Shown in pieces: positions 4,733 through 17,755 of a stretch of DNA of 64,000 nt. The notes beneath the pieces are model-generated. The model searched no databases. It was not told where the DNA came from and saw only the letters and a list, made by a program, of their open reading frames with translations. The position numbers were made by a program, and so were the translations under genes. The stretch is from contig JANXBY010000021.1 of the NCBI GenBank assembly GCA_025060455.1, forward strand, positions 62,001-126,000, read 5' to 3'. Every line of letters starts with the position of its first letter. The first letter of the stretch is position 1. This DNA comes from Armatimonadota bacterium (GTDB taxonomy: Bacteria; Sysuimicrobiota; Sysuimicrobiia; Sysuimicrobiales; Sysuimicrobiaceae).

Positions 4733-6175
4733 CTACGTCGGGTCGGTGCACAACGCCCGCGCGTGCTCCTGCAGCAGGTTCCAGCACCGGCGTACGTGCT
4801 GCAGCTCCGTCCGCAGGTTGCCCACGCTCAGCCGGAGGACGTAGCGTCCGCGCAGGACCGTGTGCGACAGGTACGCCCGGCCGGTGGCGTTTACCGCCTC
4901 CAGCAGCCGCTCGTTGAACCGGTTCGCCTCTTCCAGATCCCTGCCTGGAGCCCGGTGGCGGAAGCACACCGTGGAAAAGGGCACCGGCGCCACCCGCTCG
5001 AACTCCTGCGAGGCGTCCACCCACTCCGCGAACTGCCGGGCCAGCTGCAGGTGGCCCCGCAGCGCCTCCTGCAGCCCACGGACGCCGAACATCCGGATCA
5101 CCATCCACAGCTTCAGGGCCCGGAACCGCCGGCCCAGCTGGATCCCGTAGTCCATGAAGTTCACCGCGTCTGCGACCGGCGTCTGGAGGTACTCGGGGAC
5201 GAGGCTGAAGGCAGCCCGCAGGACCTCCGGGCGACGGGTGTAGAAGGCGGTGCAGTCAATGGGGGTAAACAGCCACTTGTGCGGGTTCACCAGGAAGGAG
5301 TCCGCCCGCTCGCAGCCCCGCAACACCCACCGCATTTCGGGGAGGATGGCCGCGGCACCCCCGTAGGCCGCGTCCACGTGCAGCCAGATGCCGTACCGCT
5401 CGCACACGGACGCGATCTCGTCCACGGGGTCCACGCTGGTGGTGGAGGTGGTGCCCACCGTGGCCACCACGCACACGGGCCGCCACCCGGCCCGCAGGTC
5501 CTCCACCACGGCCTGCTCCAGGGCGTCGGGGCGCATACGGTAGTCGCCGTCCGTGGGGATCTTCCGAACGCCTTCCTGCCCCAGCCCCAGCACTACGGCG
5601 GCCTTCTCCACGCTGGAGTGGGCCTGCTCGCTGGTGTACAGCCGCAACCGGGGAAGGTCCGGCCGGCCGGCCATACCTCGGGTCCGGACCTCCAGTCCCA
5701 GCGCCTCCCGGGCGGCGGCCACCGCGCACAGGGTGGCCACCGAGGCGGTGTCCATGATCACCCCGAACTGCTCGGGCAGGCCCAACATCTGCCGCAGCCA
5801 GTCCAACACCACCTGCTCCAGCTCCGTGGCCGCGGGGCAGGTCCGCCACAGCATCCCGTTCACATTCAGAGCCGCGGACAACAGCTCTCCCAGCACCCCG
5901 GGGGCTGACCCCGTGATGGCGAAGTACGCAAAAAACGCGGGGTGGTTCCAGTGGGTGACCGCGGGTAGGACCCGGTCCTGGAAGTCTTGCCACACCGCCT
6001 CGAAGGGCTCAGGCTCCTCCGGGGGAGTCGGCGGGAGTGCGGACCGCAGGCTCCCGGGGTGCACCTGCGCCAGGACCGGGTACCGGTCCGCCTCCTGGAA
6101 GTAGCGGCTGACCCAGTCCACCACAGTGCCCGCAGCTATGGCAAACTCACGTTCGACATCTTTCGGCGTCCGCAT
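4733..6175 (-). CDS. Group II PLP-dependent amino acid decarboxylase
   Basis: A 480-aa enzyme of the aromatic-L-amino-acid / glutamate decarboxylase (group II) family. The PLP Schiff-base lysine is K300 in NPHKWLF, the ring-stacking histidine is H186 in SEQAHSSVEK, and the aspartate that pairs with the pyridine nitrogen is D268 in HVDAAYGG. The conserved N-terminal WNHPAFFAYF segment is present. Sequence resembles the DOPA/tryptophan decarboxylase branch most, but the amine product cannot be fixed by eye; an aldehyde-synthase variant is also possible. The start ATG has GAGGAG six bases upstream. It diverges from the first GGDEF gene across a 67-base spacer. Confidence 0.9.
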   Translation of the reverse strand: MRTPKDVEREFAIAAGTVVDWVSRYFQEADRYPVLAQVHPGSLRSALPPTPPEEPEPFEAVWQDFQDRVLPAVTHWNHPAFFAYFAITGSAPGVLGELLSAALNVNGMLWRTCPAATELEQVVLDWLRQMLGLPEQFGVIMDTASVATLCAVAAAREALGLEVRTRGMAGRPDLPRLRLYTSEQAHSSVEKAAVVLGLGQEGVRKIPTDGDYRMRPDALEQAVVEDLRAGWRPVCVVATVGTTSTTSVDPVDEIASVCERYGIWLHVDAAYGGAAAILPEMRWVLRGCERADSFLVNPHKWLFTPIDCTAFYTRRPEVLRAAFSLVPEYLQTPVADAVNFMDYGIQLGRRFRALKLWMVIRMFGVRGLQEALRGHLQLARQFAEWVDASQEFERVAPVPFSTVCFRHRAPGRDLEEANRFNERLLEAVNATGRAYLSHTVLRGRYVLRLSVGNLRTELQHVRRCWNLLQEHARALCTDPT

Positions 6176-6242
6176 GGTGGCTCCTCACTTGCTCCATGCC
6201 GCTGTGGAGGCCGAAGACGGCCTTTGCTCAGGAGGTTTCGCG

Positions 6243-7472
6243 TTGGCCACGACCGCGGTCCCTCGATCCGCCGCTGCGCGGATGGGCGCGTATCGAGTGT
6301 ACACCCTCGCGTGGGCTTGCGCTGGAGCGGCGTGTCTGGTGGCGTCCGTGCCCTCCCTGCCAAAGCTGCCTCCGGACTACCTGCTGTTCGTGGCCCTGTC
6401 CGTAGCAGGTCACCTGCTGTTCGTCCTGGACCTGCCCGGAGGGCTGCGGCTGAGCCTGCAGGTCGCCCTGGCCCCCGTGTGGCTGTACGGGTGGCAGGCA
6501 GGCCCGCCCCTGTTCTTCCTAACCCTCCCTTTGGTGCTTCGCAACAGCGCCTCCGAACCGCTACGCGCCCTGCTGTACTTCGGAAACGGCAGCGTGTGGG
6601 CCACGCTGGGCGGGTTGCTGTTCACGGTGTTGCGCCCGGCCACCTCCCCGCAGCCCAGCTGGTCGGAGGTCGCCGCGGTGTTGCTGTCGGGGACGGCGTT
6701 CGTGGTCGGCAACTTCCTCACCGCCGCCGTCGGGCGCTACCTGGCTACGGGGGACCGCGCCGTGTTCGCGCGCGCCAACGCCGCGGAGGCGTTCGTCCTG
6801 GTGTTCGCAGGCTACGTGCCCCTCGCGTACCTGCTCACCCTGGCCGTGCAGACCGGCCCCGCGGCCGCGTTCCTCGCCGTGGGCGTGTGGCTCCTCACCG
6901 CGGTGGCCCTGAGGGGTGTTGCACACACCCGCCGAGCCAACGAGAAGCTCCAGGCGGCCCTGCGGGAACTGGAGCAGCTGAGCGTGACCGACCCCCTCAC
7001 CGGCCTGTGGAACCGCCGCCACTTCATGCAGGTGCTGCCCAAAGAACTGGAACGCCACGCCCGCTCAGGCCGACCCTTGAGCCTGCTGGTGGTGGACCTC
7101 CGCAGCCTCAAGCAGGTCAACGACACCTACGGCCACCAGGCAGGGGACCGGGCCCTGCAGCAGGCCGCCCAGGTGTTTCGCGACCGGCTGCGGTCGTCCG
7201 ACCTGGCGTTCCGGATCGGGGGAGACGAGTTCGCCCTGCTCCTGCCGGACACCGACACCTCCGGCGCGGTCACCGTGGCGGAGGCCGTGGTGGGGCGGCT
7301 GGGCGCGACCCCTGTGGAGTCAGCCCCCGCCGCACGCCTGGACGCCACCGTGGGTGTGGCCACCTTCCCCCGCCACGCCCGGGATCTGGACGGGCTGGTG
7401 GCGGCCGCAGACCGGGCTCTGTACCGTGCCCGGGACCGGGGCTCCCGGGTGGCGGTAGCAGACGCGGACTAG
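6243..7472 (+). CDS. Membrane-anchored diguanylate cyclase (GGDEF), copy 1
   Basis: About 409 aa: an N-terminal integral membrane region of roughly six hydrophobic segments (to about residue 220), a short linker helix, then a C-terminal GGDEF domain that would make cyclic di-GMP from two GTP. The active-site motif GGDEF is at residues 326-330, with an RxxD inhibitory site (RSSD, 317-320) exactly five residues upstream, so product feedback is likely. The usual DxDxFK stretch is altered to DLRSLK; the first Asp is kept. I place the start at TTG 6243 because AGGAGG lies seven bases upstream; earlier ATGs overlap the divergent decarboxylase gene. Paralogous to the gene at 8175. Confidence 0.9.
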   Translation: MATTAVPRSAAARMGAYRVYTLAWACAGAACLVASVPSLPKLPPDYLLFVALSVAGHLLFVLDLPGGLRLSLQVALAPVWLYGWQAGPPLFFLTLPLVLRNSASEPLRALLYFGNGSVWATLGGLLFTVLRPATSPQPSWSEVAAVLLSGTAFVVGNFLTAAVGRYLATGDRAVFARANAAEAFVLVFAGYVPLAYLLTLAVQTGPAAAFLAVGVWLLTAVALRGVAHTRRANEKLQAALRELEQLSVTDPLTGLWNRRHFMQVLPKELERHARSGRPLSLLVVDLRSLKQVNDTYGHQAGDRALQQAAQVFRDRLRSSDLAFRIGGDEFALLLPDTDTSGAVTVAEAVVGRLGATPVESAPAARLDATVGVATFPRHARDLDGLVAAADRALYRARDRGSRVAVADAD

Positions 7473-7495
7473 GACAGGATCTCCCCGCAGGCGGG

Positions 7496-8053
7496 CTACG
7501 CCAGCTCCAATACCTCCCCGATCCCCCTCATAGCCTCCAGGACTGCGGCCACATGCTCCTCGAAGCTCACGCCCAGCTCCTCCGCGCCCCGCAGCAAGTC
7601 CTCCCGCCGCACGGCCCGGGCGAACGCTTTGTCCCTCATCTTGCGCTTGACGGAGTCCACGTCCACGTTCCTCAGGGAGCGCCCCTTCACCAGAGCCACC
7701 GCCACCACGAACCCGGTGATCTCGTCGCAGGCGAACAGCGCCCTCTCCATGAGGGTTTCCCTGGGCACGCCGCTGTAGTCCGCGTGGGACAGGATGGCCC
7801 GGCACCAGTGCTCGGGAACCCCGCGCCGCCGTAGCTCCTCCACGCCCACGAACGGGTGGCCACCCGGCCCCAGATGGGGGTGGCGCTCGTAGTCCAGGTC
7901 GTGCAGGAGGCCTACAGTCCCCCACTCCTCCTCGTCGGCACCGAACCGGCGGGCGTAGGCCCGCATGCACGCCTCCACCGCCAGCAGGTGCTTGCGCAGG
8001 TTGGGGTTGTGGACCCACTCCCTCACCAGAGCGTACGCCTCGTCCCTCGTCAT
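7496..8053 (-). CDS. HD-domain hydrolase
   Basis: A 185-aa HD superfamily metal-dependent phosphohydrolase resembling COG2316. Candidate metal ligands are H22, the HD pair H51-D52 in LLHDLDYE, H66 in GGHPF, the His of LSHADYSG and a distal Asp in ACDEITG. The substrate is unknown. It lies between two GGDEF genes on the opposite strand, but it is not of the HD-GYP class, so a role in cyclic di-GMP turnover is not supported by sequence. ATG start with GAGGAGGG upstream. Confidence 0.85.
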   Translation of the reverse strand: MTRDEAYALVREWVHNPNLRKHLLAVEACMRAYARRFGADEEEWGTVGLLHDLDYERHPHLGPGGHPFVGVEELRRRGVPEHWCRAILSHADYSGVPRETLMERALFACDEITGFVVAVALVKGRSLRNVDVDSVKRKMRDKAFARAVRREDLLRGAEELGVSFEEHVAAVLEAMRGIGEVLELA

Positions 8054-8174
8054 CCGCCCTCCTCGATGCCGGGATCTCCGTGAACTCCGTGCGCTCCCCG
8101 GGCCTGGACACGCTCCGGCGCCCGGCCTTTATCCTGGCACCGAAGTTGCCTTGCGCCCACCGGAGGACGTTGGC

Positions 8175-9419
8175 ATGGAAGGCACACTGCCTCCCGGCCG
8201 GTCCGGGCCGTCCCGGGCGTACGGGGCCTACGCCCTTAGTTGGCTCACCATCGGCCTGGTCCTCCTGGTCGCCTCTGCACGCCACGTCCTCCAGACGGGG
8301 GAACCTACCACCCTGGCGGTCTTCGGAGCGCTGGCGCTCTTTGGCAACCTGGTGGCCGTCCGATTCCCCTCCGGGGTCATCCTGGGGATGCAGGCTCCGT
8401 TCGTGTTCGGAGCGGTGTGGCTGCTCGGCTGGGCCGCAGCACCGCCGCTGTACGGGGCCTGTGCAATGCTGCTCCCGCCCTTGCAGCGCGTGAGCTGGAA
8501 GCGGGCGCTGGTGTTTTTCGGGAACACCTCCCTGGCTATGGCTCTGGCCGGCACCCTGCTGTGGGAGCTGTGGGGCGGGCCCCTCCCAGTCCACGTCGGG
8601 GCCCGCGACGTGGCCGCGACCCTCGGCGCGGGCCTGCTGCACGGACTCATCAACACCCCCGCCGCCGCCCTCGCGCGGTTCTACGAGTCCGGCGACCCGG
8701 CCGCGCTGCGGCCGAAGCTCCTCGCACCGATGGCCGCCATCAGCGTGGCAGTCTACGCCCCCATCTCCGTCCTGCTGGTGGTAGCCTACCGGTCCGGGGT
8801 GCCCGTGTTCATCCTGGCGGTTTCTGTCTGGCTGCTGGTGGGGCTCACCCTGCAGGCTTACCGCTCCAGCCGCGACCTGAACGCGCGCCTGGAGCAGGCG
8901 ACCCGGGAGCTCGAGCGGCTGTCCACCACCGACCCCCTGACAGACCTGCTGAACCGCCGGGTGTTCGCCGACGTGGCCCACCGGGAGCTGGCCCGGCACC
9001 GCCGCTACGGCGACCCCGTGAGCGTGGTCCTCCTGGACCTCAGGCACTTCAAGAGGGTCAACGACACCCTCGGTCACCAGGCGGGGGACGCGGTGCTGCA
9101 GTGGGTGGCCCACGTGCTGCGCCGCCGGTTGCGGAAGACCGACTTTGCCTTCCGGTTCGGAGGGGACGAGTTCGCCGTGCTGCTGCCCGGCACGGGGCTT
9201 TCGGGGGCCGTGGCGCTCGCGCACTCCCTGTGCGAAGCCCTGAGGTCGGGCCACGGGCTGAAGGGCGCCGACGTCACCCTGGCGGTGGCCAGCTGCCCGG
9301 ACCACGGCGCCACCGTGGACGAGCTGGTGCGGGCGGCGGACCGCGCGCTGTACCGGGCCAGGGAGGAGGGCAACTGGCTGGGGGTACCGGACGCCTACAG
9401 CACTAGGTCCATCGGGTAG
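8175..9419 (+). CDS. Membrane-anchored diguanylate cyclase (GGDEF), copy 2
   Basis: A 414-aa paralogue of the protein at 6243 with the same layout: about six membrane segments, a helix, and a C-terminal GGDEF domain. GGDEF is at residues 329-333 with an RxxD inhibitory site (RKTD, 320-323), and the metal region reads DLRHFKRVND. ATG start with GGAGG eight bases upstream; the open frame further upstream is antisense to the HD gene and is not family-like. Its 3' end overlaps the convergent M24 peptidase by 25 bases. Both copies are transcribed against the leftward arm of the origin region, unlike their neighbours. Confidence 0.9.
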   Translation: MEGTLPPGRSGPSRAYGAYALSWLTIGLVLLVASARHVLQTGEPTTLAVFGALALFGNLVAVRFPSGVILGMQAPFVFGAVWLLGWAAAPPLYGACAMLLPPLQRVSWKRALVFFGNTSLAMALAGTLLWELWGGPLPVHVGARDVAATLGAGLLHGLINTPAAALARFYESGDPAALRPKLLAPMAAISVAVYAPISVLLVVAYRSGVPVFILAVSVWLLVGLTLQAYRSSRDLNARLEQATRELERLSTTDPLTDLLNRRVFADVAHRELARHRRYGDPVSVVLLDLRHFKRVNDTLGHQAGDAVLQWVAHVLRRRLRKTDFAFRFGGDEFAVLLPGTGLSGAVALAHSLCEALRSGHGLKGADVTLAVASCPDHGATVDELVRAADRALYRAREEGNWLGVPDAYSTRSIG

Positions 9420-10616: not shown

Positions 10617-10632
10617 TATTTCTCGAGAAATA
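10617..10632. promoter_or_regulatory. parS: Candidate parS centromere site, copy 1 (perfect palindrome)
   Basis: TATTTCTCGAGAAATA is a perfect 16-bp palindrome between the parB stop and the downstream peptidase start. It shares the TTTCnCGnGAAA skeleton of ParB sites but differs from the canonical parS (TGTTTCACGTGAAACA) at the outer and inner variable positions. A second copy lies at 12333, on the other side of parAB. Placement of matching palindromes on both flanks of parAB near the origin supports a centromere role; binding is inferred. Confidence 0.8.
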
Positions 10633-10637
10633 CTCCC

Positions 10638-11492
10638 TCAGGGCAAGGGGCCTCCGAGGATCAGCTCGCAGATCCTAGACAGGTCCTCGTCCGAGTAAAA
10701 TTCGATCTCCAGCACCCCGCGCTTCCTACCCGGCCGGACCTTCACCCGGGTCCCCAGCCGCTGGCTCATGGCCTCCTCCAACGCCACCCGGTGTGGGTCG
10801 CGTGCCGGCTTGGGGCGGCCTTGCCGCCTGCGCGCGTGGCGCTGGGCCAGCCGCCTGAGCTCCCCCACAGACAGCCGCCGGGAAGCTGCAGCTTCCGCGA
10901 GCTGCACCTGCAGGACCGCGTCCTCCACCTCGAGGAGTGCGCGCGCGTGAGCCTCTGACAACTCGCCCCGCTCCACGCGCCGGAGGACCTCTTCCGGAAG
11001 CGACAGGAGCCTCAACGTGTTGGCCACCGAAGGCTGGCTTCGGCCTACGAGGTCCGCGATCTCCTGCTGCGTCAGCCCGAACTCCTGCGCAAGCCTTCGG
11101 TACGCCCGCGCCCGCTCCACGGGGTTCAGGTCCTGCCGTTGCAGGTTTTCCACCAGGGCCAGCGCCACACTCTCCAGCTCCCCCACCTGCCGGACCAAGG
11201 CAGGCACCGTGGCAAGCCCCGCCAGCACCGCCGCCCGCCACCTCCGCTCCCCTGCCACGATTTCGTACCCGTCGGCTGCGGGCCTGACCACGATGGGCTG
11301 CAGGATGCCGTGGGCCTTCACCGAGGCGGCCAGATCTTCCAGCTCCTCTTGCGAAACCGAAAGCCTCGGCTGGTTCTTGCCTGGCCTGAGCTGGTCTGTG
11401 GGCAGGTACTCGACACGCTCCTCCCTGTCGTGGGCACCGGGGATCAGGGCCGCGAGCCCCCTGCCCAGGCCACGGGGCCGGGTCCCACTCAC
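10638..11492 (-). CDS. parB: Chromosome partitioning protein ParB
   Basis: CTP-dependent DNA clamp that loads at parS and spreads, working with ParA in origin segregation (284 aa). Visible are the family N-terminus RGLGRGLAALIP, the CTP/arginine motif GERRWRAA (residues 81-88), the helix-turn-helix around residues 140-165 and a C-terminal dimerisation region. Residues at the positions known to set parS versus NBS specificity (Caulobacter numbering 173, 179, 184, 201) are Q153, T159, S164 and A181 here; canonical ParB has R, T, A, G, and Noc has Q, K, K, R. The start overlaps the parA stop by 4 bases (ATGA). Confidence 0.96.
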   Translation of the reverse strand: MSGTRPRGLGRGLAALIPGAHDREERVEYLPTDQLRPGKNQPRLSVSQEELEDLAASVKAHGILQPIVVRPAADGYEIVAGERRWRAAVLAGLATVPALVRQVGELESVALALVENLQRQDLNPVERARAYRRLAQEFGLTQQEIADLVGRSQPSVANTLRLLSLPEEVLRRVERGELSEAHARALLEVEDAVLQVQLAEAAASRRLSVGELRRLAQRHARRRQGRPKPARDPHRVALEEAMSQRLGTRVKVRPGRKRGVLEIEFYSDEDLSRICELILGGPLP

Positions 11493-12274
11493 CGGGTCCC
11501 CCCTACGGCGGCCGCGGGGCGCAGGGAGGCGGCCAGCTCCTGGGCAAGCGCCTCGTACGCCTGAGCCCCCTTTGAGTAGGGGTCGTACAGCATCACCGGC
11601 TTGCCGTGGCTTGGAGCTTCAGCCAGCCGCACACTGCGGGGAACCACGGTCTTGGCCACTCGGGCGCCGAAGTGCGCACGCACCTCACGCGCCACCTGTT
11701 CGCTCAGGTTGGTCCTGGGGTCGTACATGGTGAGGATCACCGCGGCCACCTGCAGCCCAGGGTTGAGCGCCCTGCGCACGGCTTCCACTGTCCGGACCAG
11801 CTGGGCTACCCCCTCCAGGGCGTAAAACTCGCACTGGATGGGCACCAGGACCCCGTCGGCGGCGGCCAGCGCGTTCACCGTGAGCAGCCCGAGGGAAGGG
11901 GGGCAGTCCACCAGGATCCAGTCGTACCGCTGCCGGGCAGGTTCGAGGGCCTGCCTGAGCCGCTGCTCCCTGCCTGGGCTGTTCACCAGCTCCACCTCAG
12001 CCCCTGCCAGGTCCAGGCTGCTCGGGAGCAGGTCCAGCCCGTCCAGCTCGGTGGGAAGGGCGGCCTGCCTCACCGACGCGCCCTGAATCAGGCAGTCGTA
12101 CGTAGACGTCCGGACGTACGCCCGGTGGACTCCCAGCCCGCTGGTGGCGTGTCCCTGCGGGTCGAGGTCCACGAGCAGGACCTTCCACCTCGCCCGGGCC
12201 CAGTACGCGCCCAGGTTCACCACCGTGGTGGTCTTACCGACCCCTCCCTTTTGGTTGGCGACCGCTAAGATCAC
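11489..12274 (-). CDS. parA: Chromosome partitioning ATPase ParA
   Basis: Deviant-Walker ATPase (261 aa) that forms the nucleoid-bound gradient along which ParB-parS complexes move. The N-terminal P-loop is ANQKGGVGKTTT, followed by the DLDPQGHATSG and DCPPSLG motifs. GTG start; the frame remains open upstream but contains no further start codon. No clear Shine-Dalgarno is seen, and the start codon overlaps a 12-bp palindrome. Its stop overlaps parB. It is separated from rsmG by a gap that holds the second parS-like site. Confidence 0.96.
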   Translation of the reverse strand: MILAVANQKGGVGKTTTVVNLGAYWARARWKVLLVDLDPQGHATSGLGVHRAYVRTSTYDCLIQGASVRQAALPTELDGLDLLPSSLDLAGAEVELVNSPGREQRLRQALEPARQRYDWILVDCPPSLGLLTVNALAAADGVLVPIQCEFYALEGVAQLVRTVEAVRRALNPGLQVAAVILTMYDPRTNLSEQVAREVRAHFGARVAKTVVPRSVRLAEAPSHGKPVMLYDPYSKGAQAYEALAQELAASLRPAAAVGGTR

Positions 12275-12284
12275 AACGCGTTGT
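12273..12284. repeat. 12-bp perfect palindrome at the parA start
   Basis: ACAACGCGTTGT is self-complementary and overlaps the first two bases of the parA GTG. Its position over the initiation site would suit an operator or an mRNA hairpin controlling parAB expression, but no such factor is known to me and the element could be fortuitous. Confidence 0.35.
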
Positions 12285-12332
12285 TCGGGTTCGCGGCCCT
12301 CAGCTCCTGCGCGATGGCGAGCAGCCGCTCGT

Positions 12333-12348
12333 TATTTCTCGAGAAATG
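12333..12348. promoter_or_regulatory. parS: Candidate parS centromere site, copy 2
   Basis: TATTTCTCGAGAAATG matches the site at 10617 in 15 of 16 positions, the only change being the outermost base. It lies in the 87-base gap between the rsmG stop and the parA start. Together the two copies bracket parAB at 1.7 kb spacing. Identity as parS is inferred from palindromy, duplication and context. Confidence 0.78.
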
Positions 12349-12361
12349 CCCGGTCAGGCCA

Positions 12362-12970
12362 TCAGGCCAAAAACACCGCAACCCTCCTGGTCCTTTGGGG
12401 GTCCCATGGCACGCGGCAGGCCACCTCATGGAACGGTGGGCTCACCGCGGCCCCGGGTCCCACAGGCACGGCCAGCCTTCCACCCCCTCTGAGCAGGCGC
12501 CTGGCCATCCGGAGGACGACGGCCGGTGCAGCCACCGCCCTGGCCACCACCACGTCAAACTTAGCCTGGTACTGGGGGCGCGTGCAGGCCTCCTCGGCAC
12601 GCAGCGCTTCCACCTGTACGTTTGGGATCTGCAGCTGCACCGCCGCCCGTTCCGCGAACGCGGCCCGCTTTTTCCGGGGCTCCAGCAACACCACCTGTAG
12701 GTCGGGCCTGGCCACCGCCCACACGAGCCCAGGGAGCCCCGCGCCGCTCCCCACGTCCGCCACGGACCCTCCCTGCGGCGGCCGGACCATCACCAAGAGC
12801 AACAGGCTGTCCAGCACGTGCGCCCGGAGGATCTCCTCTACGGAGGCAGGCGCCACGAGGTCAACCCTGACGTTCCACCGCGCCAGCAGGTCCCTGTAAC
12901 CGAGCAGCTGCGCCCGCTGACGGTCCGACAGAACGAGGCCCAGCGCCCGACAGGCCTCTTCAAGCTCCAC
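12362..12970 (-). CDS. rsmG: 16S rRNA (guanine-527-N7)-methyltransferase RsmG
   Basis: SAM-dependent methyltransferase (202 aa) that modifies G527 of 16S rRNA. The SAM-binding motif is DVGSGAGLPGL, preceded by HVLDSLLLL, both typical of RsmG/GidB. The start is taken as GTG 12970, overlapping the end of jag by 11 bases; the longer upstream frame lies within jag and lacks homology. In most relatives mnmE and mnmG separate jag from rsmG; here they do not. Confidence 0.93.
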   Translation of the reverse strand: MELEEACRALGLVLSDRQRAQLLGYRDLLARWNVRVDLVAPASVEEILRAHVLDSLLLLVMVRPPQGGSVADVGSGAGLPGLVWAVARPDLQVVLLEPRKKRAAFAERAAVQLQIPNVQVEALRAEEACTRPQYQAKFDVVVARAVAAPAVVLRMARRLLRGGGRLAVPVGPGAAVSPPFHEVACRVPWDPQRTRRVAVFLA

Positions 12971-13670
12971 GGCCCTGCGGCTGTGGCCGTCTGGGAGGCC
13001 TGCGGGCTGGCCTGGCGGGCACCGCCCGCCCCGTGGGTTCCACCACCACGTGCCGGGCCTCACCGGTGCCCTCACTGCGGGTGGTCACCTTGGGGTCGCC
13101 TGCCAGGGTCGTGTGCGCCACCCGCCGCTCCCTGGCGTCCATGGGCGGAAGGTGCACCGCCTTGCCCTGCGCCACCGCCCTGCGCGCAGCCCTGCGGGCC
13201 AGCTCGGCCACGTGCTGCCGCCGCCTGGCCCGGTAGCCCCCGATGTCCACCTCCACCTCTGCCCTGGAGCCGGTGGCTTGGTGCACCATGGCGGACAGCA
13301 CCGTCTCCACCGCCTCGATCCCCTGGCCGCGCCGGCCGATCAGAAGCCCCAGGTCCTCGCCCTGCACGTCCAGGAAAAGGCCCCGCTCTGTGGCGTGGGC
13401 CAGCACCGAAGCGGAAAACCCCATTTTGCTCACCAGGGTGCGGGCGATCTCCGTAGCGGTGGCCAGAGTGCGGGCGTCCGGGGGTTCCTCGGGCAGCTGG
13501 GCCCGCGGCACCACGCGCACTCGGGCCTCCCGCGCCCCCAGCCCGAACACCCCCCGGGACCCCTCGTCCAGCACGTGGATTTCCGCCTCCTCCCGGGTGA
13601 GGCCTGCGCGTTCCAGCGCCGCCGCGATGGCCTCCTCCACCGTCCGACCCGACGCCACCACCTCTCTCAC
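12960..13670 (-). CDS. khpB: Jag/KhpB RNA-binding protein
   Basis: RNA-binding protein of 236 aa with an N-terminal Jag domain (REVVASGRTVEEAI), a KH domain with the GxxG-type loop LIGRRGQG, and a C-terminal R3H domain (R..RRRQHVAELA). In Gram-positive bacteria it pairs with KhpA and affects cell elongation and division. GTG start overlapping the yidC stop by 4 bases (GTGA); the extra upstream frame is out-of-frame yidC sequence. The C-terminus is rich in Pro and Arg. Confidence 0.93.
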   Translation of the reverse strand: MREVVASGRTVEEAIAAALERAGLTREEAEIHVLDEGSRGVFGLGAREARVRVVPRAQLPEEPPDARTLATATEIARTLVSKMGFSASVLAHATERGLFLDVQGEDLGLLIGRRGQGIEAVETVLSAMVHQATGSRAEVEVDIGGYRARRRQHVAELARRAARRAVAQGKAVHLPPMDARERRVAHTTLAGDPKVTTRSEGTGEARHVVVEPTGRAVPARPARRPPRRPQPQGRGA

Positions 13671-15178: not shown

Positions 15179-15540
15179 GCCGGCCCCACAGGCCGCCACC
15201 GGCAGCCTGTGGACAACCTGTCTGTAACCCCTCACCTTGTCCACAATCTCGCCCGTGTCCCGCGACCACCCCTCAGCCGCTTCCGAACCTTCGCCGACAC
15301 CACTCACCCACATCCACAGCTTTTTCACCGTCTGTGGATAACCCGGCCCACCCGCACCGCTTCCGCTGCTGCGTGGCGTCCTCCCGCCGCTCCCCAGCCC
15401 GAGCGAAGCCTCCGGGGTTTTTCGCGTCTTGCCGGAACACCGCAATCCTTCCCGCGAAACCGGTGAAAAATCTCCCTCGCCTCCTCCGCGTGCAGGAGTA
15501 TGCTTGTGTGTGGCCAACAGCTCGCCAGCGGGGGCGGGGA
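15179..15540. other. oriC: Gene-free origin region upstream of the HATPase gene, with DnaA boxes
   Basis: No gene is seen here. It holds a DnaA-box cluster: TGTGGACAA at 15208-15216, TTGTCCACA at 15237-15245 (inverted relative to the first), the weaker ACATCCACA at 15310-15318, and a perfect TGTGGATAA (reverse of TTATCCACA) at 15333-15341. This is the usual place for the incAB-like half of a bipartite Firmicutes-type origin. A second, weaker group lies in the dnaA-dnaN spacer. The rest (15346-15540) shows no clear element. Assignment as oriC is inferred. Confidence 0.7.
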
Positions 15541-16326
15541 ATGTCGCTGCGCGACCTCCTGACCCAGATCCTGGAGGAGCGGGAGGGCCGGCGTGAGCCC
15601 GAAGGCCCGCCCGAGGTACGGCTGGCCGTGTACGACTCACCGCTGGCGGAACCGCGAGTCATCTCGCTGTCCAGCGATGACTTCCATGACCTGGTGGGCA
15701 AGCTGGCTGCAGCCACCTTCGACCACGCGCAGCGCCGCGGAGGCCGCATCCCCTACGTGGTCATCCGGGAGATCGTGGAGAATCTCATCCACGCGTACTT
15801 CCGCAGCGCCGTGATCAGCATCAGCGAGGACGGCAACACCATCCGGATCTCCGACCAGGGGCCGGGGATCCCGGACAAGGAGCGCGCCCTGCAGCCGGGC
15901 TTCACTACCGCCACACCCACCATGCGCCGTTACATCCGCGGGGTGGGATCCGGGCTTCCCGTGGCGCGGGAGCAGCTGAGCTTCCTCGGTGGGGCCATCA
16001 CCATCGAGGACAACCTCAACGGCGGCACCGTGGTGACCCTCCGCCTGCAGTCGGAGCGTGCTCCCGCGGCGCCGGGCGCTTCCGCCCAGCCCGGCGCCGG
16101 GCTGACGGAGCGCCAGCGCCGGGTGCTCCTCCTCGTGGCGGAGATGGGATCTGCGGGGCCCACCGCGGTGGCGCGGGAGCTCGGCATCAGCCTGTCCACC
16201 GCGTACCGCGAGCTAGCGGCTCTCGAAGCCCAAGGCCTGTTGCGCGCGCAACCGCGCGGCCGCCGCACGCTCACCGAGCAGGGGGTGCGGTTCGTGGACG
16301 AGCTGTTCCGCGCACCGAAACCGTGA
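15541..16326 (+). CDS. HATPase-domain protein fused to a winged helix, upstream of dnaA
   Basis: A 261-aa protein I do not recognise as a characterised gene. Residues about 55-180 form a GHKL/HATPase_c ATP-binding domain of the anti-sigma/histidine-kinase type: N-box EIVENLIHAYF, G1 box SDQGPGIPD and G2 box RGVGSGLPVA are intact. No phosphoacceptor (DHp) domain is visible. Residues about 195-258 form a winged helix (TAVARELGISLSTAYRELAAL). The parts suggest an ATP-gated DNA-binding regulator or a serine kinase. It lies between the DnaA boxes and dnaA, reading toward dnaA. The frame is open further upstream, but ATG 15541 has a GGGGCGGGG leader and gives the natural N-terminus. Confidence 0.85.
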   Translation: MSLRDLLTQILEEREGRREPEGPPEVRLAVYDSPLAEPRVISLSSDDFHDLVGKLAAATFDHAQRRGGRIPYVVIREIVENLIHAYFRSAVISISEDGNTIRISDQGPGIPDKERALQPGFTTATPTMRRYIRGVGSGLPVAREQLSFLGGAITIEDNLNGGTVVTLRLQSERAPAAPGASAQPGAGLTERQRRVLLLVAEMGSAGPTAVARELGISLSTAYRELAALEAQGLLRAQPRGRRTLTEQGVRFVDELFRAPKP

Positions 16327-16393: not shown

Positions 16394-17755
16394 ATGGAAC
16401 ACGCCTCCTCCGCGATCCCGTCGCCCGCGCAGGACCTGTGGCAGCAGGCCCTGCTCCGCCTCCAGGAGCGCCTAGGCAGGCCCGGGCTCGGCGTGGAGAT
16501 GTTCCTGAAAAGCGCCCGTGCCCTTTCCCTGGACCGCGACGCGTTGCTGGTGGCCGTGCCCAACCTGATGGCCAAGCAGTGGGTGGAGGAACGCTACCTG
16601 GCGGCCCTCCGGGAGGAGCTGTACCGCGTGGTCGGCCGTCCGGTGGACGTCCGCGTGGTGGTCTCCGACGAACCCGCGCCCGCCGAGCGCCCTCCGGCTG
16701 TCCGAGCGCCTTCCGGGGTGGACGGCATGCACCTGTCTCCCCGCTACACCTTCGAGACCTTCGTGGTGGGCTCCGGCAACCGATTCGCCCACGCGGCCGC
16801 GGTGGCGGTGGCGGAGGCCCCAGCCCGCGCCTACAACCCGCTGTTCATCTACGGCGGCGTGGGACTGGGCAAAACGCACCTCCTGCAGGCCATCGCCCAC
16901 CGCCTGCTGGCCCACCCCGTGCCCGTCCGCATCTTCTACTGCACCGGCGAACGCTTCACCAACGAGGTTATCAGCGCCATCCAGGCGGGCCGCACGGAGG
17001 ACCTGCGGCGCAAGTACCGGGGCGTGGATGTCCTCCTGATCGACGACATCCAGTTCATCGCGGGCAAACCCAGCACCCAGGAGGAGTTCTTCCACACCTT
17101 CAACGCGCTGCACGAGGCCGGCAAGCAGATCATCCTCGCCTCCGACCGTCCTCCCAAGGAGATCCCCACCCTGGAGGACCGCCTCCGCTCCCGGTTCGAG
17201 TGGGGGCTGATCGCGGACGTCCAACCACCGGACTATGAGACCCGGGTGGCCATCCTCCGCAAGAAGGCGGAGCTGGAGCGGATGACGGTTCCCCCGGAGG
17301 TGGCGGAGTTCATCGCCCAGCACTTCCAGTCCAACATCCGGGAGCTGGAGGGCGCCCTCGTGCGGGTGGTCGCCTACGCCACCCTCACCCGCGTCCCCAT
17401 CTCCGTGGACCTGGCCCGCGAGGTCCTGCGGGACATCCTCCCCCAGCACCGCCCGCAGCCCATCACCATCCAGGCCATCCAGAAGGCGGTGGCCCAGCAC
17501 TTCGGGCTGCGGGAGGAGGACATGACCGCCAAACGCCGCACCAAAGGCGTGGCTTTCCCTCGCCAGGTGGCCATGTACCTGGCCCGCGAGCTCACCGACT
17601 CCTCCCTACCGCGCATCGGGGAAGAGTTCGGAGGCCGCGACCACACCACCGTGATCCACGCCTGCGAACGGGTCCGGGCGGAGATGCAGCGCGACCCGCA
17701 CCTGGCCGCCACCGTCCACGCCCTCATCCAGCAGCTCCGCCGCGGCGGTTCGTAA
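16394..17755 (+). CDS. dnaA: Chromosomal replication initiator protein DnaA
   Basis: AAA+ initiator (453 aa) that binds DnaA boxes and melts the origin. Domain I is at residues 1-80, a short domain II linker follows, then the AAA+ core with Walker A GGVGLGKT (154-161) and Walker B VLLIDDIQF (213-221), and domain IV with the DnaA-box signature GRDHTTVIHACERV near the C-terminus. ATG start with GGGAGGA upstream. It follows the HATPase gene by 67 bases. Local base use (C above G on this strand) differs from dnaN. Confidence 0.98.
   Translation: MEHASSAIPSPAQDLWQQALLRLQERLGRPGLGVEMFLKSARALSLDRDALLVAVPNLMAKQWVEERYLAALREELYRVVGRPVDVRVVVSDEPAPAERPPAVRAPSGVDGMHLSPRYTFETFVVGSGNRFAHAAAVAVAEAPARAYNPLFIYGGVGLGKTHLLQAIAHRLLAHPVPVRIFYCTGERFTNEVISAIQAGRTEDLRRKYRGVDVLLIDDIQFIAGKPSTQEEFFHTFNALHEAGKQIILASDRPPKEIPTLEDRLRSRFEWGLIADVQPPDYETRVAILRKKAELERMTVPPEVAEFIAQHFQSNIRELEGALVRVVAYATLTRVPISVDLAREVLRDILPQHRPQPITIQAIQKAVAQHFGLREEDMTAKRRTKGVAFPRQVAMYLARELTDSSLPRIGEEFGGRDHTTVIHACERVRAEMQRDPHLAATVHALIQQLRRGGS

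Follow-up and report, generated by a model that had tools for sequence, protein, structure and literature searches.

The window analysed here, the whole 64,000-nt stretch of DNA, contains the origin end of the chromosome, in which yidC, jag, rsmG, parA and parB lie on the minus strand and dnaA and dnaN on the plus strand. The parB gene (10638..11492, minus strand) begins with a GTG start codon, encodes 284 amino acids and overlaps by 4 bases with parA (soj; 11489..12274, minus strand), upstream of which rsmG (gidB; 12362..13075, minus strand) is the neighbouring gene. The slot adjacent to rsmG is the one that we take to be the place of the Noc gene in Bacillus; no noc gene occurs at this slot here, and a single ParB homologue was detected in the 2.26 Mb genome. 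The dnaA gene (16394..17755, plus strand) marks the origin region. Upstream of dnaA we also observed an ORF (15334-16326) carrying an ATPase signature of the histidine-kinase type (SDQGPGIPD, GVGSGLPVARE) and an HTH-like C-terminal stretch, an uncommon neighbour for dnaA. Elsewhere in the window (6126-9419), two membrane-type ORFs with GGDEF motifs (RxGGDEFALLL or FGGDEFAVLL) occur in tandem, at 6126-7472 and 7965-9419, separated by a minus-strand ORF (7496-8053).

Two parS-like palindromes flank parAB, about 4-6 kb from dnaA. The first, TATTTCTCGAGAAATA (10617..10632), is situated within the 22 bp that separate the parB stop codon from the next gene and carries A at base 1 and T at base 6 (A1 and T6) in both half-sites; the second, TATTTCTCGAGAAATG (12333..12348), is located between the start of parA and the end of rsmG and is one base off, in agreement with the description in the first-pass annotation. 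No palindromes of the TATTTCTCGAGAAATA type were expected by chance (100 dinucleotide shuffles), and with up to 3 mismatches allowed we found no third site anywhere in the 2.26 Mb draft genome (80 contigs, 95% complete). A search of the genome with the degenerate parS/NBS pattern TRTTTCNCGNGAAAYA, allowing up to 1 mismatch, retrieved nothing further and hence neither a canonical parS nor an NBS; at 3 mismatches the number of matches was near that of the reversed-pattern control (31 versus 25). The idea of a divergent ParB-site pair thus survived a genome scan that could have uncovered canonical parS sites or scattered copies of the palindrome, and uncovered neither.

Both sites are kept in relatives, which rules out a chance origin. 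The TATTTCTCGAGAAATA palindrome occurs just 3' of the parB stop codon also in G001, G003, G004, G006 and a fragment of G002, all of the same family, and the second copy upstream of parA also in G003, G004, G006 and G008. The letters of the site between parA and rsmG are TATTTCCCGGGAAATA in G003 and G006, TATTTCCCGAGAAATC in G004, TATTCCTCGAGAAATA in G008 and AATTTCTCGCGAAATA in G001. The last of these genomes, a MAG of the same genus, appeared to have a second ParB (contig 21, RAAG, 43% identity), which we rejected as part of a chimeric contig because both G001 contigs turn foreign at the start of parA: from this conserved point on, L152:2200-3060 (C21) and L114:1-1044 (C38) are foreign sequence, and the two probably make up a reciprocal assembly chimera involving a proteobacterium-like parAB. 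From contig 21 only the rsmG-side site was retained; AATTTCTCGCGAAATA beside rsmG (L152:3027) is probably the genome's own upstream parS.

The protein encoded by parB is a member of the ParB family. It scores 185.8 bits against the ParB/RepB/Spo0J domain model TIGR00180 (cut-off, 58.45), contains the family motifs GERRWRA and ENLQRQDLNP as well as an HTH, and adjoins parA near the origin, to which its two 16-bp palindromes are confined. Its N-terminus, VSGTRPRGLGRGLAALIPG, has the ParB-type GLGRGL start (GLGRGLAALIP), which is absent from the Noc paralogues compared, and lacks the membrane-targeting helix of the Noc type; the score against the Noc model TIGR04285 (217.2 bits) is below the cut-off of 315. 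Alignment to PDB 6T1F, with a constant offset of 20, places Q153 (codon 11034..11036), T159 (11016..11018), S164 (11001..11003) and A181 (10950..10952; all on the minus strand) at Caulobacter positions 173, which reads base 1, 179, 184 and 201, which lies near base 6, bearing out the earlier assignment of Q, T, S and A to these positions. The combination QTSA is not the QKKR type of Noc. Because any residue is tolerated at position 184 (PMC7383237), S184 is nearly uninformative, and it is the changes to Q173 and A201 that carry information. The canonical class combines R173 and G201 with TGTTTCACGTGAAACA; with Q173, A201 and no canonical site, the ParB studied here stays within the family, and its specificity class differs from the canonical one.

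This deviation concerns positions that had been considered fixed. R173 and G201 were called absolutely conserved in extant ParBs (Jalal 2020, PMC7383237), and structures and mutants showed that R173 bonds G1, Q173 bonds A1 and R201 bonds the partner of C6, while G201 presents no side chain to base 6 (PMC7383237). The locus is akin to known chromosomal ParABS systems (ParB/Spo0J with TGTTTCACGTGAAACA), sharing the order rsmG-parA-parB near dnaA, the ParB motifs, a 16-bp palindrome at the origin in few copies and a single ParB; it differs in having A1, T6, Q173 and A201 where the known system has G1, A6, R173 and G201 (PMC7383237). In a non-exhaustive search of the literature on the letters of the site and on co-variation of ParB, we found no report of natural ParB/parS pairs with a residue other than R173.

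Examining ParB and parS across the phylum-level group to which the genome belongs (43 genomes of one order, in seven families; ParB read in 38) revealed that the two track each other. Residues 173 and 201 are R and G in 14 of the 38 ParBs, Q and G in 16, Q and A in 7, and P and G in one. R173/G201 occurs with TGTTTCACGTGAAACA in family f7, G009 and G011 (one base off in the latter), and Q173/G201 with TATTTCACGTGAAATA or its T4C variants in families f2 and f5. In f1, the family of the window, and in f3, Q173/A201 is paired with TATTTCTCGAGAAATA beside parB, and the copies on the parA side are of the TATTTC(T/C/G)CG..GAAATA type; in G003 and G006 they match the NBS exactly. In G026, P173/G201 is paired with GTTTTCACGTGAAAAC, present in a single copy that was equalled in 1 of 200 shuffles. 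Base 1 was concordant with residue 173 in all genomes having a site (37/37), the per-genome majority base being G for R173 (14/14), A for Q173 (22/22) and T for P173 (1/1), counts in which related genomes, through common descent, are not independent of one another. The majority base 6 was A in every genome with G201 (31/31) and T in every genome with A201 (6/6), and none of the 24 half-sites in A201 genomes has A6; G005 (QATA) has degenerate copies only. The number of such sites per genome in the group is one or two, and almost all lie at parAB. No group member carries K or R at 179 or 184, and two f5 genomes have exactly QTAG. Together with the agreement of unrelated lineages described below, these comparisons strongly support that ParB and parS co-varied in this group. 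They support as strongly the third specificity class that the first-pass annotation had proposed, and in fact indicate several further states.

In families f2, f4, f6, f7 and most of f5, a site is found inside parB at a homologous place. Canonical and A1 genomes have it at one and the same position of the alignment, and it thus represents a single orthologous site, which in the f7 genomes and G009 is a textbook parS. The site encodes VSRET in its canonical form and ISREI in its A1 form, with a non-synonymous G-to-A change in both half-sites; because these two symmetric changes each alter the protein, they point to selection acting on the palindrome as DNA. Families f1 and f3 lack this in-gene site, and their sites flank parAB instead. 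Q173 may have arisen once or several times within the group, by parallel gain or by gain followed by reversal: a single Q173 clade could not be rejected on the ParB tree (p-AU 0.32), and the tree of rsmG, jag, yidC, dnaA and dnaN unites f1 with f3 (100/100) and separates them from the remaining families (99/97), among which are R173 as well as Q173 ParBs; on this neighbour-gene tree parsimony requires three changes.

Outside the group we surveyed 179 ParBs (79 + 100), 171 of which have R173/G201. In L184 (G139), a ParB with QTKG is accompanied by two perfect TATTCCACGTGGAATA palindromes, the sole such sites in that genome; an A1 A6 site had been predicted from QTKG before the relaxed search and was then found, and three relatives of G139 likewise combine QTKG with A1 sites. 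The KTKT ParB of L046 (Candidatus Omnitrophota) has five copies of GTTTYCACGTGRAAAC within 400 bases (8721-9121) beside parA. RAGR in L238 (G172) is paired with CGTTTCCCGGGAAACG, the other members of the G172 class examined having G201, and RTQA in L251 (G158) with a single TGTTTCTCAAGAAACA. Shuffles gave a near-zero expectation for the sites of these outside lineages. A6 is retained in two ParBs with S201, and likewise with T201. No site was found for L193 (RTSA) or L249 (G105; V173), and in L249 no recognisable parS occurs within 10.7 kb around the V173 parB, the site of which may constitute a further class; a lone parS-like match far from parB in G105 was treated as chance. As a separate observation, the L046 array resembles a dense centromere cluster of the T1 type.

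The rule for base 6 is softer than the rule for base 1, because some G201 ParBs have C6 or G6 sites, e.g., the RAAG ParB of L309 with TGTTCCCCGGGGAACA. In the G172 class (L309, L299, L305 and L314), G201 ParBs occur with C6 or mixed base 6 (TGTTCCCCGGGGAACA, TGTTTCACGGGAAACA), and base 6 looks loosely held. We also noted that in Selenomonadaceae (L010:5463, L031:1252) parS is TGTTTCGCGCGAAACA, with G1 and G6, and that the ParB carries H202Q and R204K (LTGGQAKP in place of LSAGHARA), possibly another variant at base 6, here due to a different residue.

Several of the natural pairs have counterparts among the engineered intermediates between Caulobacter ParB and Noc (PMC7383237). In that work, the QTKG and RTAR variants switched to hybrid sites, Q173 variants favouring A1 and R201 variants C6 (PMC7383237), and these hybrids resemble two natural combinations, QTKG with A1 A6 in G139 and its relatives, and RAGR with G1 C6 in G172. 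In contrast, Caulobacter ParB with QTAG or QTAR bound 0 of 16 sites, K or R at 179 or 184 being required (PMC7383237), whereas the Q173 ParBs of the group, including the two that are exactly QTAG, do without K or R at these positions. Because natural QTAG exists without them, other residues in the group must replace the lysine at 179 or 184. Q173 was the last step in the inferred laboratory route to the new specificity (PMC7383237); its widespread occurrence with G201 indicates that Q173 does not need the change at 201. The combinations A201/T6 and P or K173/T1 are not among the engineered intermediates.

The likeness to Noc invites a reading of the protein as a Noc, or as a transitional form between ParB and Noc, and of the palindromes as Noc sites serving nucleoid occlusion; an "evolutionary intermediate" of this kind had been suggested for this locus. 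Q173 and A1 are indeed shared with the Noc/NBS system (TATTTCCCGGGAAATA), the second site of G003 and G006, upstream of parA, matches the NBS consensus letter for letter, and the top HMM score was that of the Noc model, yet under its cut-off. In a 67-row tree, however, the ParBs of the group form one clade (99/99) within ParB, with the Noc paralogues in a separate clade (100/100). The protein has A201 rather than the R201 of Noc and has neither K179 nor K184, parA adjoins its gene, its N-terminus is one not seen in Noc paralogues, and no other ParB is present in the genome for segregation. In addition, the group has one or two sites per genome, almost always at parAB, as compared with the tens of NBS scattered over the chromosome. 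The tree, the gene neighbours, the N-terminus and the distribution of sites reject a Noc origin; the claim of an intermediate is not supported, and we consider this reading very improbable. The likeness to Noc (Q173 with A1) is instead convergence by a ParB on the same contact.

Could the palindromes be true parS sites that merely drifted under weak constraint, with a ParB of relaxed specificity? The variation at base 6 in the A201 clade (T, C or G), the poor ability of alanine to contact this base and the degenerate sites of G005 would fit such a scenario, which we regard as unlikely, though less so than a Noc origin. It does not account for the unmixed majority base 1 (A in 22/22 Q173 and G in 14/14 R173 genomes), for the consistent lack of A6 in the A201 clade, for the joint and non-synonymous shift of both half-sites within parB, or for the same pairing reached by independent lineages. 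Hardly credible, in our judgement, is a role unrelated to ParB, i.e., as terminators, as operators of another regulator or as chance occurrences. One palindrome does directly follow a stop codon, and a hairpin of 6 bp, rich in A/T, is conceivable, but folding was no better than in shuffles and no terminator signal was detected over either site, leading us to reject a terminator or RNA structure; moreover, the chance expectation is 0, the homologous in-parB site is a textbook parS in f7 and G009, and the letters of the site follow the residues of ParB across lineages.

We consider it very probable, judging from the compared sequences, that this is a chromosomal ParABS locus in which the parS sequence and the recognition surface of ParB diverged together, with no gene duplication. 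The two palindromes of the TATTTCTCGAGAAATA type would be the parS sites of the cell: a ParB dimer would load at them, convert to a CTP-dependent sliding clamp and segregate the origin together with ParA and, probably, SMC. Binding of TATTTCTCGAGAAATA and TATTTCTCGAGAAATG by this ParB, and its function in segregation, are thus predicted. In each half-site, residue 173 would read base 1 (R with G, Q with A, P or K with T) and residue 201 would determine which letter is preferred at base 6 (G, S or T with A; A with T or C and not A; R with C), with P173 or K173 to T1 and A201 to T6 as putative physical contacts. The compared pairs agree with the published contacts of R173, Q173 and R201, to which A201 with T6 or C6 and P173 or K173 with T1 would be additions. 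At least four matched states would have been passed through or branched into, namely R/G with G1 A6, Q/G with A1 A6, Q/A with A1 and T6 or C6, and P/G with T1 A6. It seems probable, with somewhat less assurance, that ParB and parS constitute a co-evolving two-letter code (173 with base 1, 201 with base 6) that was repeatedly changed in single-copy, presumably essential systems, such that centromere specificity is not frozen.

The complete ParB-parS pairs described here, from one phylum-level group and several unrelated lineages, form a naturally occurring series in which both partners changed jointly in single copy, and thus a natural record of an essential protein-DNA lock and key that was re-cut without the usual gene duplication. 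The reference route to a new specificity was derived from mutants of one protein, and extant pairs now supplement it: within the group, Q173 occurs with and without the change at 201, and always without the permissive K179 or K184 demanded by laboratory mutagenesis. Extant ParBs with QTAG, QTKG, QTSA, RAGR, PTHG and KTKT, together with their own sites, provide substrates for studying epistasis and the order of change. Searches for canonical parS would wrongly score such genomes as lacking parS. For DNA labelling, in which NBS-type engineered pairs are currently used (PMC11798528), naturally orthogonal ParB/parS pairs are now on offer. If the reading as a code is true, one ParB and its one or two sites crossing a valley without duplication would make a testable case.
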